Below the pieces are notes generated by a model, which saw only the letters and a list, made by a program, of their open reading frames with translations, made no database searches and was not told the origin of the DNA. Below, one piece after another: positions 12,652-26,391 of a DNA stretch of 51,011 nt. Both the position numbers and the translations under genes were made by a program. Source of the stretch: Acidimicrobiales bacterium (GTDB taxonomy: Bacteria; Actinomycetota; Acidimicrobiia; Acidimicrobiales; SZUA-35); assembly GCA_024644005.1 (NCBI GenBank), contig JAHELU010000004.1, forward strand, positions 1 to 51,011, read 5' to 3'. Each line of letters starts with the position of its first letter. The first letter of the stretch is position 1.

Positions 12652-13575
12652 TCACCCGGTGTCAGGACTCCTCGTGGCGGCGTAACCCCGACGCATGAAG
12701 TCCCGCAGGTACTCCCGGTACACCAGCGGCCCATGACGCTTCGGATGGTCCTCGTCGACACAGCTCGCCACCGGGTCGACGATCGTGTCGACCCTGGGAT
12801 CGAAGAAGAACGGGATGGCGTAGCGGTCGACGGAGCCATCGCTGCGGACCCGGTGGCGGGTCGACAGGAACCGGTCGTTGGTCCATCGCCGCAGCATGTC
12901 ACCGGCATTCACCACGAACGACTCCGGTTCCTGGGAGACCGGCAGCCATCGGCCGGACGGGTCCTGGATCTCCAGCCCGGCCACCGGGTTCGTCGGCAAC
13001 ATCGTCATGAACCCGGCATCGGAGTGGGGGTCGATGCCCCACTGACCGTCCGCGCCCGGCACGGCCGGGTAGTGGGTCATGCGGAGGGTGGCGAGGGCCG
13101 GATCGAAGAACTGCCGGAAGTAGTCGGCCGGCATCCCGGCGGCCAGCGCATACAGCGGGAGGAGCTGCTGGCCGAGCCGGTCCATCGCCCGGTAGTAGCC
13201 GGTCACCGCCTCCCGGAAGCCGGGGAGCTGCGAGCCGTCGGGGAACCGGTTCCGCTTCGAGCCCGGCCGGGCCATGAAGAACGCGGCGTTCAGTGCCGGT
13301 AGGTCGCCCTGCCTGGCACCGCCGAGGGGCACGTAGCCCATCGTCGCCGGGCCCATGGCGTCGGCCGTCTTGGTCGCCGTCGGCAGGGCGTGGTAGCGGG
13401 CGGCCCAGCGGTAGATGTCGTCGACCTGCTCCCAGCCGATCCCGTGGCCGACGATCGACAGGAAGCCCACCTCGGTCAGGGCCGCCCTCAGCTGTTCGGC
13501 GGCCGCTCCGGTGGCGACCCGGTCGCCGCCGCGATGGCCGGTCAGGTCGATCACCGGGAGGGTGAGGACAGTCAC
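12652..13575 (-). CDS. isopenicillin N synthase-like 2OG/Fe(II) oxygenase
   Basis: GTG start; LPVIDLTG..., GFLSIVGHGI, WGIDPHSDAGFMTML (HxD), NAGDMLRRWTNDRFLSTRHRV. Confidence 0.88.
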   Translation of the reverse strand: MTVLTLPVIDLTGHRGGDRVATGAAAEQLRAALTEVGFLSIVGHGIGWEQVDDIYRWAARYHALPTATKTADAMGPATMGYVPLGGARQGDLPALNAAFFMARPGSKRNRFPDGSQLPGFREAVTGYYRAMDRLGQQLLPLYALAAGMPADYFRQFFDPALATLRMTHYPAVPGADGQWGIDPHSDAGFMTMLPTNPVAGLEIQDPSGRWLPVSQEPESFVVNAGDMLRRWTNDRFLSTRHRVRSDGSVDRYAIPFFFDPRVDTIVDPVASCVDEDHPKRHGPLVYREYLRDFMRRGYAATRSPDTG

Positions 13576-15125
13576 GGCGAGCCCCGATCGAGCCGCTCGA
13601 CCAGCTCGAGCTTCTGGACCTTGCCCATCGGGTTCCGGGGCAGCTCGGTGACGACCACCACCTGTTTCGGGCACTTGTAGCCGGCCAGGCGGTGGCGGCA
13701 GTGGTCGACGATCTGGTCAGGCTCCAGCGACCGTCCCGGCTTCGCCACCACGACAGCGGTGACCCGCTCGCCCCAGGTCTCGTCGGCCAGACCGACCACG
13801 GCGGCCTCGGCGATCGCATCGTGCTCGACGAGGACGCGCTCCACCTCGGCGCAGTACACGTTCTCCCCGCCGGAGATGATCATGTCCTTCACCCGGTCCA
13901 CGATGGTCAGCCGCCCGTCGGGCAGACGGATCCCGATGTCGCCGGAACGGCAGAACCCGTCGTCCGTCAGCGCCGCGGCAGTCGCCGCCGGGTTGCCGAG
14001 GTAGCGGCCGAACGGCGTGAGCGAGCGGGCCACCACTTCACCGGGGGCACCGGTGGGACAGGACCGGCCCTGCTCGTCTCGCACGTCGATCTCGGTACCC
14101 AGCACCGGCCAGCCGACCGAATGGGGGACGAGGTCCGATCGCTGCTTGACCTCGTACGTCACCCAGCCGCCCTCCGTCCAGCCGTAGGCCTCGGTGATGT
14201 TGGCCCTGGGGAAGACGTCGAAGGCCCGGTCGAGCAGCGACATCGGGCCGGGAGCACCCGACGACAGCAGCCACTCCAGCGCATCGAGCGGTGGCTTGCC
14301 GGCTGCCTCCCACGCCTCGGCCACCATGGCGGTCATCGACGGCACGAGGAACACCCAGGTGGCGTTGCGGGCGTACTCGTCGAGCGCCATCTCTGCGTCG
14401 AAGTCGACGAGCAACCGGTTCCGGCCTCCGGCGGCGAGATGGGCCAGGCTGAGGCCGCCGTACGACATGTGGAACACCGGTCCCGGCGTCGACAGCACCT
14501 GGCCGGGGCTCAGGCCGAACGTCCACGCCCACTGGGCGAACCTGGTCAGCAGCCCGCCGTTGGTCACCGTCGACCCCTTGGGGAAGCCGGTGGTCCCACT
14601 GGTGTAGGCGACGAGGGCCAGTCGGTCCGCCGCCTCGGGCCCCGACGGGCCCTCCCAGCGCGATCCGGCGCCGTCGCCGAGCGGGGTGACCGTTGCGACG
14701 TCGACGACGGTGGCCCCCGCCGCCCCGGCCGCCTGCGAGGCGGTCGCCGCCATCGACCCGCCCGTCACGATCACCTCGGCCTCGCTGTCCGAGAGGACGA
14801 ACTGGACCTCGGGGGCGGCCAGGCGGTTGTTGATCGGCACCGCCGCCGCGCCGATGCGCTGGCAGGCCAGGTAGGCGGCCAGGTGATCGACCGAGTTCGG
14901 CAACAGGATGGCCACCATCGGGCCGTCCGAGCCCGGTGGCAGGGGACCGAGCGCGGACGACAACGCGTCCGCCAGGGTCTCCACCCGGCTCCAGACGCGG
15001 CCATAGGTCCACGTCTCGACCGGGGCCGAGCGGTCCCTGGGGGAGAGCACCTCCACCGCCACCCGATCGGGAGCCGAGCGGGCGACGGCGGCGACGCAGT
15101 CTGCCACCGTCCACCCCGGGTTCAT
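13572..15125 (-). CDS. AMP-dependent acyl-CoA synthetase/ligase
   Basis: LVAYTSGTTGFPKGSTVT, YGWTEGGWVTYE, GFCRSGDIG, IVDRVKDMIISGGENVYCAEVE, PRNPMGKVQK. Confidence 0.93.
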   Translation of the reverse strand: MNPGWTVADCVAAVARSAPDRVAVEVLSPRDRSAPVETWTYGRVWSRVETLADALSSALGPLPPGSDGPMVAILLPNSVDHLAAYLACQRIGAAAVPINNRLAAPEVQFVLSDSEAEVIVTGGSMAATASQAAGAAGATVVDVATVTPLGDGAGSRWEGPSGPEAADRLALVAYTSGTTGFPKGSTVTNGGLLTRFAQWAWTFGLSPGQVLSTPGPVFHMSYGGLSLAHLAAGGRNRLLVDFDAEMALDEYARNATWVFLVPSMTAMVAEAWEAAGKPPLDALEWLLSSGAPGPMSLLDRAFDVFPRANITEAYGWTEGGWVTYEVKQRSDLVPHSVGWPVLGTEIDVRDEQGRSCPTGAPGEVVARSLTPFGRYLGNPAATAAALTDDGFCRSGDIGIRLPDGRLTIVDRVKDMIISGGENVYCAEVERVLVEHDAIAEAAVVGLADETWGERVTAVVVAKPGRSLEPDQIVDHCRHRLAGYKCPKQVVVVTELPRNPMGKVQKLELVERLDRGSP

Positions 15126-22385: not shown

Positions 22386-22685
22386 TCAGGCCTCGAGCGT
22401 CTCGAGCAGGTCGTGGACGGTGTGGTTGCTCTCCAGCGGGTGGCGGAGCGGCTTGTCGTCGATGATCTCGTAGCGGTTCCGGCGGCCGATCCGCTCCCTG
22501 GTGATGTAGCCCCCCTGCTCGAGATCGTCGATGATCTTCTGCACCGCGCCGGTGGTTATCCCCACCGCATGGCTGATGTCCCGCTGGCGCAGCTCGGGGT
22601 TGCGCCGGATGGCGATCAGCACATGGGCGTGATTGGTGAGGAACGTCCACGACGGGAGCTCCGGTTGCGGGTCTACTAATTCCAC
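22386..22685 (-). CDS. winged helix-turn-helix transcriptional regulator (MarR-like)
   Basis: GTG start; NHAHVLIAIRRNPELRQRDISHAVGITTGAVQKIIDDLEQGGYITRERIGRRNRYEI; TATACT-N6-GTG leaderless promoter. Confidence 0.85.
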   Translation of the reverse strand: MELVDPQPELPSWTFLTNHAHVLIAIRRNPELRQRDISHAVGITTGAVQKIIDDLEQGGYITRERIGRRNRYEIIDDKPLRHPLESNHTVHDLLETLEA

Positions 22686-22797
22686 CGTCGGAGTATAGCT
22701 ATTCGGCTGCGCCTGTTCCCAGGGGCCGAACACTGGCCATGGGTTCGGACCGCCCACGCCGATTGACCACGGGAAGGGGCCGGACGAGGATTGATCC

Positions 22798-24969
22798 GTG
22801 AAGCTCTTCTCCCATCGGAAACGGCCCGTCCATCTCGGGCCGTTCCCGCTGGAGCGGCTGCGGCGCCTCACCGACCCGGGAGCCCGCCCGCTCGGCATCG
22901 AACCCGGTCGACCGCTGCCGCCTCGACCCGCGGAGGCGCGAGTCGATGGACCGCGCGGCGCCGGTCACGCCTACCGGCCCTATCTCGATCTGCTCGACGA
23001 GCGCCGTCTCGGTCGCCCGGCCCAGCCGGCCCCGGTGCCCGACGGGGAGACGGAACGAGCCAACAACCTGAAGGCCGGCCTCTACTTCCTCGATGCCGAC
23101 ATGGTGGGCTGCGCAATCGTGCCAGACGAGGCCTGGTCCGACCAGCGGTCGAACCATCCCTACGCCGTCGTGGTGCTGATCGCCCACACCCGCTCGCCGG
23201 CCGGCCGCCAGCCGGGCGACGAGTGGATCGACGGGACCCGGCAGCTCAATGCCGACCTCCGGGCCGCCGAACTGGCCGTGATCACCGCCGCCTACATCCG
23301 CAACATCGGTTTCGAAGCCACGGCCCACACCCCGACCGGTTCCGACGTCGATCTCGACCGCCTGGCCCTGCAGGCCGGCCTCGTCGAGGTGGCGGGCGGT
23401 CGGCTCCGGTCGCCCTACCTCCGTACCGGGTTCGCGCTCTCCGCCGTCACCACCTCGATGGTGGTCCGACCGGATGCCCCACTGGCGAGGCGCTCGGCGG
23501 CGGCGCGGCTGCGAACCACGCTCGGGCCCGGTTGGCTCATCGGCTGGGGCGGGACGAGGGCCGGCCTCGATCGGCTCAACGGCGATCACCGACCGCTCCA
23601 CCTCGGGCGGTACCCGATGGAGCGGATCGCCCGCGTCGACGAGCCGACGACGCTCGTCATCGAGGACGAGGTCGAGCGGGTCCCGGTTCGCGCCGGCGGA
23701 TTCCCGCGTGCCGCGAACGGCGACTTCGGACCGAAGTTCCAGAACGACGTCAAGGTGTTCGCCTTCAAGACGCCATCGGCCCAGGCCTACGTGAGCCAGA
23801 TCGCAGCGATGGTGCCCCATCAGGACGGGCCGGTCGGCGATCAGCCGGACCAGGGAACCGACGACGCGGGCGCCAACGCCGATGCCGTGAAGGCGCTGGC
23901 CCACCACCTCGGCGCGGACATGGTCGGTGTGTGCCGGATACCGGACTACGCCTGGTACAGCCACCGCGGCGATGGCACCCCGATCCAGCCCTATCACCGC
24001 TATGCGGTGGTGATCCTGCTCGATCAGGGCTACGAGACGATGGAGGGCGCCAGCGGGGACGACTGGATCTCCGGCGCCCAGTCCATGCGGGCCTACATGC
24101 GAGGGGCCCAGATCGCCGGCATCCTGGCCGAGCACATCCGCTCGCTCGGCCACGGGGCCCGCAGCCAGACCAACCGGGACTCCGATGTGCTCCACATCCC
24201 GCTCGTGCTCCATGCCGGGCTGGGGGAGATGAGCCGGATCGGGGAGCTGGTGCTGAACCCGTTCGTCGGGCCGAGGTTCAAGTCGGTCGTGGTCACCACC
24301 GATCTGCCGCTCACCCCGGATCGCCACATCGACTTCGGGCTCCAGGACTTCTGCTCGAAGTGCACGAAGTGCGCCAGGGAGTGCCCCTGTGCCGCCATCC
24401 CGTTCGGCGACAAGATCATGTTCAACGGCTACGAGACGTGGAAGCCCGACGTGGAGCGATGCACCAAGTACCGCCTCGGCAACCTCAGGGGCTCGGCTTG
24501 TGGCCGTTGCATGAAGACCTGTCCGTTCAACATCGAAGGCGTCCTCGCCGAGCGAGCGGTCCTCTGGGCCGCCATCAGACTGCCGGTCACCAGGCGCTGG
24601 ATCGCCCGGCTGGACGACTGGATCGGCAACGGCTCGATCAACCCGGTCAAGAAGTGGTGGTGGGACCTCGAGTTCGTCGACGGGCGAGCGGTGGAGCCGG
24701 CCAGGGGCACCAACGCCCGGGAGCTCGATCCATCGGGTGGCCGGATCGCCGACAGCCAGCAGATCGCCCTCTACACACCGGACCTCCTGCCGCCCGGCGA
24801 CGCCGTCGGTGTACCGGTGAGGCTGGTCCGCAAGGAGGCCCTGCAGCGGGCGGCCGAGGCGGAGTCCCCGAGAGCGGCCCTGGCCAGGATCGGGGCGCCG
24901 GCCCGATCGCCGGGTCGCGGCCGGTCCCGGTGGCTCGGTCGGGTGAGCTCAGGTCGACGGGTTCTGTGA
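22798..24969 (+). CDS. reductive dehalogenase-like protein (RdhA family, cytoplasmic/catabolic type)
   Basis: DFGLQDFCSKCTKCARECPCAAIPFGDK (CX2CX2CX3CP) and CTKYRLGNLRGSACGRCMKTCPF (CX12CX2CX3CP); no Tat signal; internal domain duplication. Confidence 0.85.
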   Translation: MKLFSHRKRPVHLGPFPLERLRRLTDPGARPLGIEPGRPLPPRPAEARVDGPRGAGHAYRPYLDLLDERRLGRPAQPAPVPDGETERANNLKAGLYFLDADMVGCAIVPDEAWSDQRSNHPYAVVVLIAHTRSPAGRQPGDEWIDGTRQLNADLRAAELAVITAAYIRNIGFEATAHTPTGSDVDLDRLALQAGLVEVAGGRLRSPYLRTGFALSAVTTSMVVRPDAPLARRSAAARLRTTLGPGWLIGWGGTRAGLDRLNGDHRPLHLGRYPMERIARVDEPTTLVIEDEVERVPVRAGGFPRAANGDFGPKFQNDVKVFAFKTPSAQAYVSQIAAMVPHQDGPVGDQPDQGTDDAGANADAVKALAHHLGADMVGVCRIPDYAWYSHRGDGTPIQPYHRYAVVILLDQGYETMEGASGDDWISGAQSMRAYMRGAQIAGILAEHIRSLGHGARSQTNRDSDVLHIPLVLHAGLGEMSRIGELVLNPFVGPRFKSVVVTTDLPLTPDRHIDFGLQDFCSKCTKCARECPCAAIPFGDKIMFNGYETWKPDVERCTKYRLGNLRGSACGRCMKTCPFNIEGVLAERAVLWAAIRLPVTRRWIARLDDWIGNGSINPVKKWWWDLEFVDGRAVEPARGTNARELDPSGGRIADSQQIALYTPDLLPPGDAVGVPVRLVRKEALQRAAEAESPRAALARIGAPARSPGRGRSRWLGRVSSGRRVL

Positions 24970-26391
24970 CGCCGCCAGTGCGGTGGCCGCCGCCTCGGCA
25001 TGCGTGTGGTGGCTCATCGCCCGCTCGGCCCGGATCTCGGTCAACGCCTCTCGATCGACGGAGCACGGCACGGTGACCGGATCGACGTCGAACAGCCGCG
25101 CCGCGTTGTAGCCCAGGATCTTCCGCTTGATCTCTGTGGTCAGGGCCGGGTAGCCGAACCGCTCCTGGAGCTCGTCGCTGATCTGGAACGTCCTGAAGGC
25201 CTGGATCTGATCCTGCGGCGAGCCGTACCAGATCGAGTCGGTGCCCCACAGGATGTTGTCCTCGCCGACGGCGAGGAGGAGCTTGCCGATGAGGTGGGCG
25301 GCCTCGTCCGGCCTGGTCATGAGGGTTCGCCAGGTCGAGCCGAGCTCGGCGTACACGTTCGCTCCCGGGCCGATGCCGGACCGTCGCAGGGAGGTGATCA
25401 GCCGGTTCACCCCGACCTCGGCGCTCACGTCGTCGTAGGGTCCCTCGGCCGTTGCCGCCTCGAAGCCGGAGTGGTAGACGAGCAGGCTGATGGCTGGATG
25501 GTTGGTCGCCGCCGGGCCGATGTCGGCCGGCGACGAGGCGGGGTCGTTGCCCGAGAGGCCCTTGTGGACGGCGACGATCGGAACGTCGACCGCCGCCACC
25601 TGGGCCAGGTAGGCGTCGCCGGTCGCATCGTCGAGCCGCCAGGGCGGACCGCCGGCGTGGGTATAGGTCTTGAAGGCCCGGATCGGGAACTCGGCCGCAA
25701 CCTCGGCCATCGCGTCGAGCCCGAGCGAGGTGGGGAACGACTCGCCCTGCATCAGTACCCGGCCCTCGCAGCCCACCCGCTCGGCAGCCTCCATCGTGCG
25801 CTCCATCACCTCGGGCGACAGCGCTCCCGGGGCGAAGGGGATCGCGGACAGCATCACCAGATGGGTGTCGCTCTCCAGGAACAGCAGCTCGAGGAAGTGC
25901 TCGATCGAGTAGCAGTCGCCGGGGTCGGCCTCGCCGCACGCCGACTGGGGGAAGCCCGGGGCGCCGGTGCCCGGTCCGAGCTCCAGCAGATGGTTCTGCA
26001 CGTCGAAGATGAACTCGTCGTCGAGCGGGCCGACGGCCCGCTCGGCCGCCTCGGCATCGAGGGTCGAGGACGACTCGGCGCCGACCGTGCTCGACGGAGC
26101 GCCGGAGGGGCCGCTGGTCGGTTCCGGCTCGACCAGGAAGGTCCCGCCGGTCCGACCCGATTCCCTGGTGCAGGCCGCCAGCACCGACAGCGTCGTGGCC
26201 GCGCCCAGTGACGAGCGGAGGAACTGGCGCCTCGTCAGTCCGACCCGGCGGGCGTTGCGGTCGACTGCGGCGTTGGCTCGGCGGACCGCCTCCCTGGCCA
26301 GCTCGTTGGCCGGCGGGGGGACGAACTCGCCGTTGCCGCACGGCCCGAGCTTGATGGGGAGCCCCGGATCCGGTGGTTCTGGCCTGGCCAC
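24949..26391 (-). CDS. Tat-exported lipoprotein amidohydrolase (TIM-barrel metal-dependent hydrolase)
   Basis: TRRQFLRSSLGAATTLSVLAAC Tat motif plus lipobox; RAFKTYTHAGGPPWRLDD, VPIVAVHKGLSGND, NILWGTDSIWYGS; 21-bp convergent overlap with 22798-24969. Confidence 0.82.
   Translation of the reverse strand: MARPEPPDPGLPIKLGPCGNGEFVPPPANELAREAVRRANAAVDRNARRVGLTRRQFLRSSLGAATTLSVLAACTRESGRTGGTFLVEPEPTSGPSGAPSSTVGAESSSTLDAEAAERAVGPLDDEFIFDVQNHLLELGPGTGAPGFPQSACGEADPGDCYSIEHFLELLFLESDTHLVMLSAIPFAPGALSPEVMERTMEAAERVGCEGRVLMQGESFPTSLGLDAMAEVAAEFPIRAFKTYTHAGGPPWRLDDATGDAYLAQVAAVDVPIVAVHKGLSGNDPASSPADIGPAATNHPAISLLVYHSGFEAATAEGPYDDVSAEVGVNRLITSLRRSGIGPGANVYAELGSTWRTLMTRPDEAAHLIGKLLLAVGEDNILWGTDSIWYGSPQDQIQAFRTFQISDELQERFGYPALTTEIKRKILGYNAARLFDVDPVTVPCSVDREALTEIRAERAMSHHTHAEAAATALAASQNPST

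Follow-up and report, generated by a model that had tools for sequence, protein, structure and literature searches.

A probable NpRdhA-type catabolic reductive dehalogenase from an Acidimicrobiales bacterium, with a pocket signature fixed in its clade

A 51,011-nucleotide contig of an Acidimicrobiales bacterium (JAHELU010000004.1, assembly GCA_024644005.1), referred to here as the window, carries a gene, rdhA, whose product is very probably a cytoplasmic catabolic reductive dehalogenase that removes a halogen ortho to the hydroxyl of a phenol. The gene lies at 22798..24969 on the plus strand and encodes 723 amino acids. It was assigned by homology to the soluble enzymes of the type of NpRdhA, from Nitratireductor pacificus pht-3B, using the open reading frame (ORF), the TIGR02486 profile, phmmer, a tree and a structural model. 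Judged by its sequence, the protein is a catabolic RdhA of the 'truncated' NpRdhA subfamily, which has no fused reductase. The enzyme kind is already known, so the novelty is modest and rests with a pocket signature that is fixed across a 20-member clade.

NCBIfam's reductive dehalogenase model, TIGR02486, scores the window RdhA at 174.1 bits (cut-off 160.35), which is level with the 171.9 bits of NpRdhA run as a control. The Pfam Dehalogenase model PF13486 does not match the window RdhA over its gathering score, and because NpRdhA is likewise without a match, this is not evidence against membership of the NpRdhA group. A phmmer search of the PDB aligned residues 1-702 with NpRdhA (4RAS, E 6.2e-201), with another full-length match to 6ZXU. 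The two proteins are about 47% identical and co-linear over their whole length. The next PDB families are the PceA type at about 1e-23 (E 4e-23) and then QueG at 4e-3. AlphaFold2 was used to model the protein from 35 aligned sequences from the window and related loci, giving a mean predicted local distance difference test score (pLDDT) of 80, low around the apo cofactor sites, and a predicted template modelling score (pTM) of 0.87. The model matches the NpRdhA structures over its full length at TM 0.86-0.91 (4RAS: 0.88/0.91), compared with a TMq of 0.28-0.34 for PceA and a TM of 0.15-0.38 for QueG. The geometry of the cobalamin pocket was judged from sequence and this fold match alone.

The relationships were placed with a tree of 115 sequences, including eight QueGs and fourteen short, PceA-like RdhAs of the same order, built by a quick search with Shimodaira-Hasegawa-like approximate likelihood ratio test (SH-aLRT) support and no bootstrap. 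The window RdhA falls in a 20-member clade of Acidimicrobiia (SH-aLRT 95). Its sister is a group of eight further Acidimicrobiia, the two together being supported at 98, and both are nested inside the NpRdhA-type group (98). Long branches, starred in the tree, part that group from the QueGs and from the short RdhAs, and the grouping with NpRdhA has SH-aLRT values of 98-99. The nearest relatives are Acidimicrobiales, which confirms the actinobacterial host that the original prediction had proposed. That prediction had also named the NpRdhA/BhbA group, of which the NpRdhA part holds up in both tree and fold. The self-sufficient BhbA subfamily does not fit: the domain scan found no Fer2 or reductase domain, and the protein stops at 723 amino acids, after the RdhA part. 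It is the missing C-terminal PDOR domain of BhbA and JtRdhA that makes this protein a 'truncated' one.

The anatomy of the protein is that of a catabolic RdhA. The functional cobalamin-binding core, located by alignment with NpRdhA, spans residues 355-515 (23860..24342, plus strand), and a vestigial copy of it occupies residues 82-231 (23041..23490, plus strand). When the N-terminal half was compared with the C-terminal half by hhalign, residues 82-231 aligned with 355-512 at a probability of 99.9, an E of 2.2e-36 and 35% identity. In that alignment the degenerate copy has no equivalents of the catalytic Tyr and Lys. Such a vestigial duplication is the defining difference between catabolic and respiratory RdhAs (PMC10463259). 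Both [4Fe-4S] cluster motifs read in the original prediction are exact matches: CSKCTKCARECP, or C519-x2-C522-x2-C525-x3-C529-P, at residues 519-530 (24352..24387, plus strand), and C555-x12-C568-x2-C571-x3-C575-P at residues 555-576 (24460..24525, plus strand), which includes Arg559.

Active-site residues were transferred from NpRdhA, whose numbering (Y426, K488, R552, S422, N452, F290/F291, K307, F310/P311, A419, M423) was checked on the PDB sequence against PMC7565698. The catalytic and phenol-binding residues S422, M423, Y426, N452, K488 and R552 are all kept, as S429, M430, Y433, N459, K495 and R559. The catalytic Tyr/Lys pair that was to be looked for is thus present, as Tyr433 (24094..24096, plus strand), equivalent to the proposed proton donor Tyr426, and Lys495 (24280..24282, plus strand), and the phenol-holding R559 and S429 are there with it. 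The residues which bind the hydroxyl and donate the proton are invariant across the clade of the window RdhA. For this pocket in NpRdhA, both binding and dehalogenation of 3,5-dibromo-4-hydroxybenzoate have been demonstrated (PMC7565698).

The cobalamin-dependent dehalogenation proposed at the outset is supported by the kept residues, the fold match and the tree. By homology to NpRdhA we infer the activity and substrate, the cofactor and electron donor, and tolerance of oxygen. The C-terminal core would hold a base-off corrinoid, which the two [4Fe-4S] clusters would bring to the Co(I) state with electrons from a separate ferredoxin/reductase. The halogen ortho to the phenol hydroxyl would sit over the cobalt, with S429, K495 and R559 holding the hydroxyl. 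The carbon-halogen bond would then be cleaved with Tyr433 as proton donor, the halide would be released, and the dehalogenated phenol would pass into ordinary aromatic catabolism. The most likely substrates seem to be ortho-bromo- or iodo-phenols, perhaps also chloro-phenols, with a para substituent held otherwise than NpRdhA's benzoate. In support of this reading, the same genome encodes the cobalamin synthase CobS and, on contig C119, a fragment of a PobA-like hydroxylase.

Several observations weigh against this reading. No electron-transfer partner lies beside rdhA, and a search of the genome at E <= 1e-8 turned up no PDOR-like reductase, though it had no positive control and the metagenome-assembled genome (MAG) is 83% complete. 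The neighbours are not conserved: the window holds no pathway, and none of its neighbouring genes recurs beside RdhA among the close orthologues. Four pocket-lining residues are also changed relative to NpRdhA (F290G, K307V, P311A and A419G, in NpRdhA numbering), so the NpRdhA substrate is not simply transferable. The clade-specific changes F290G, K307V and P311A fall in a segment of the pocket wall, residues 297-322 (NpRdhA 286-311; 23686..23763, plus strand, by alignment). Five of the clade-fixed positions that are rare elsewhere lie within the ten residues 297-306 (NpRdhA 286-295), the loop bearing F290/F291, and the remodelled loop includes V286, G289, P292 and A295. All 20 clade members share one pocket pattern, GFVFAGSMYNKR. 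In the sister clade of Acidimicrobiia and in most proteobacterial members the pattern is FFRFAGSMYNKR or something close to it, in another Acidimicrobiia clade it is FFVFIGSMYAKR, and in NpRdhA FFKFPASMYNKR.

In NpRdhA, A419 lines the second-bromine site, and a 3-bromo-4-hydroxybenzoate molecule at the entrance of the pocket has its carboxylate salt-bridged to K307 (PMC7565698). The differences suggest, at the level of sequence, that the window RdhA has an altered pocket and takes a somewhat different substrate. K307V could be read as the sign of a carboxylate-free substrate, which we keep as a suggestion: the adjacent Lys308 is retained, and a member of the same clade (L038) adjoins a 4-hydroxybenzoate hydroxylase. 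Whether the clade is a functionally distinct type of catabolic RdhA, acting on a substrate used by no characterised RdhA, for instance a natural halophenol that is bulkier or has no carboxylate, is a tentative idea to which we give a rather low probability.

A greater departure would be a shift of the clade to a non-halogen substrate, for example to reductive cleavage of another phenol leaving group; the protein would then be a corrinoid Fe-S reductase with the NpRdhA fold. The pocket wall remodelled in all 20 relatives would suit this, and one paralogue that has lost the Tyr, Lys and Arg (L023) suggests that drift from dehalogenation is possible in the family. We consider it unlikely, as the hydroxyl-binding and proton-donating residues do not vary in the clade and nothing in the context points to other chemistry. 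The original prediction had offered a QueG-like non-halogen reaction as its alternative, and this is disfavoured. Epoxyqueuosine reductase shares the B12/[4Fe-4S] superfamily, and its model TIGR00276 does give a weak match, but at 24.2 bits against a cut-off of 200. The model bears little resemblance to QueG, the tree sets the QueGs apart, and a separate genuine QueG is encoded in the genome, split over contigs C299 and C79. QueG membership was rejected on these grounds, and a QueG or QueG-like tRNA enzyme is the least probable of the readings, refuted as far as sequence can do so. A respiratory, energy-conserving RdhA of the PceA kind is very improbable too. It shares the superfamily, and PceA is matched in the PDB at E 4e-23, but the N-terminus matches no twin-arginine translocation (Tat) model and has no twin arginine followed by a hydrophobic stretch, as had been noted at first sight; there is no rdhB; and the duplicated core is present. 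The K488/R552 arrangement is moreover of the catabolic type, and the protein groups with NpRdhA. The respiratory identity was rejected for the lack of Tat and rdhB and for the duplicated core, which leaves the catabolic dehalogenase as the preferred reading.

The GTG start of rdhA is sound because an in-frame stop lies two codons upstream, a probable ribosome-binding site, AGGA, stands 7 nt ahead of it (22787..22790, plus strand, read from the sequence), and the N-terminus, M-K/R-L-x-S, follows the pattern of NpRdhA and its relatives. GC at codon positions 1/2/3 is 0.71/0.52/0.88. Both flanking genes are on the opposite strand, so neither rdhB nor a co-transcribed partner adjoins rdhA, as the original prediction had said of rdhB. 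On one side is a divergent MarR-like winged-helix regulator of about 100 amino acids (22386..22688, minus strand; Pfam MarR_2 41.9 bits, start at 22688 inferred from sequence). The roughly 110 bp between it and rdhA hold a 9-bp inverted repeat, GGGCCGAAC-N11-GTTCGGACC (22723..22751). The MarR-like protein is a candidate regulator of rdhA and the repeat a possible operator; the MarR-like gene is not conserved beside other rdhA genes. On the other side is a convergent amidohydrolase gene (24949-26391, minus strand), which overlaps the 3' end of rdhA by about 20 bp and whose product seems to carry a Tat/lipoprotein leader, RRQFLRSSLGAATTLSVLAAC. A simple promoter and terminator scan around rdhA found nothing. 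A 2-oxoglutarate (2OG)-Fe(II) oxygenase lies 9 kb from rdhA (12652-13674, minus strand), and six loci of the sister clade (L044, L046-L049, L110) have relatives of it at 54-58%, located 4-5 kb from rdhA. Because of the distance, the link to rdhA is weak.

Several species of the window's genus and a few other Acidimicrobiales have orthologues at 70-76% identity that keep all pocket residues. Among 395 genomes drawn from across the class, only five had full NpRdhA-type copies. There are at least 559 relatives in named genomes, and about half of the 80 retained are Pseudomonadota. Operons and pathways were searched for in 80 named loci and in longer stretches of relatives, and the surroundings of rdhA vary from genome to genome. 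The patchy distribution and changing neighbours suggest that rdhA has spread horizontally as a single gene. Gene neighbourhoods in two members of the window clade lend support to the dehalogenase reading. In L038, whose pocket signature is identical, a true 4-hydroxybenzoate 3-monooxygenase (TIGR02360, 576.6 bits, over the cut-off) lies 37 bp from rdhA in convergent orientation. In L045, also of the window clade, a flavin adenine dinucleotide (FAD) monooxygenase that is distant kin of salicylate and 3-hydroxybenzoate hydroxylases ends 16 bp upstream of rdhA.

The relatives showed several other arrangements. In six loci of the second Acidimicrobiia clade, with pocket FFVFIGSMYAKR (L063, L065, L070, L074, L075, L081), rdhA is directly preceded, in the same orientation, by a VOC/glyoxalase-like gene, and apparent molybdenum-hydroxylase (CoxL-type) genes often follow downstream, making a candidate pathway operon. 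The paralogue L023:1495-3591 (G019:C18:21953-24007) is full-length and keeps the cluster cysteines but not the catalytic residues (Y426Q, K488A, R552V, S422R); its genome also carries an intact copy (L008), and by residue loss L023 would be a repurposed or non-dehalogenating protein. Another species of the window's genus has a self-sufficient RdhA-reductase fusion of 1074 amino acids with a C-terminal Fer2 domain (L014:502-3723, G001). Many genomes of the genus encode short RdhAs of about 400 amino acids (L015-L029), with pocket Y-N-R-K in place of Y-N-K-R and, from N-termini inspected by eye, no obvious Tat signal.

The characterised catabolic reductive dehalogenases in the literature consulted are proteobacterial. 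With a soluble NpRdhA-type enzyme that recurs in one genus of Acidimicrobiales and in related MAGs of the Acidimicrobiia, the range of probably aerobic bacteria which may debrominate or dechlorinate natural phenols becomes wider. The fixed pocket differences also offer a concrete handle on substrate choice in catabolic RdhAs.

Among known systems, QueG shares the corrinoid and two-[4Fe-4S] fold core with the window RdhA, without a family-level match. PceA and the respiratory RdhAs have a corrinoid, two [4Fe-4S] clusters and a catalytic Tyr, as the window RdhA would, but they have a Tat signal, rdhB and a dimer where the window RdhA has its internal duplication. T7RdhA and A6RdhA of Acidimicrobiaceae belong to the same class and superfamily and are reported as PceA-branch proteins (PMC10008544); a search of the open-licence literature for NpRdhA-type enzymes in Acidimicrobiia yielded only these two. 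The short RdhAs L015-L029 are possibly their likelier counterparts, a type linked in the literature to per- and polyfluoroalkyl substances (PFAS). BhbA and JtRdhA have the duplicated core and the same catalytic residues in their RdhA part (PMC10463259), and differ by a C-terminal flavin mononucleotide (FMN)/[2Fe-2S] reductase domain. NpRdhA (4RAS, 6ZXU, 6ZXX, 6ZY0, 6ZY1) has adjoining ferredoxin/reductase genes (PMC10463259), which the window RdhA lacks, and the window RdhA has an actinobacterial host. The two are alike in length, domain order and vestigial N-terminal core, in both cluster motifs and all six catalytic and phenol-binding residues, and in having neither a reductase domain nor a Tat signal.
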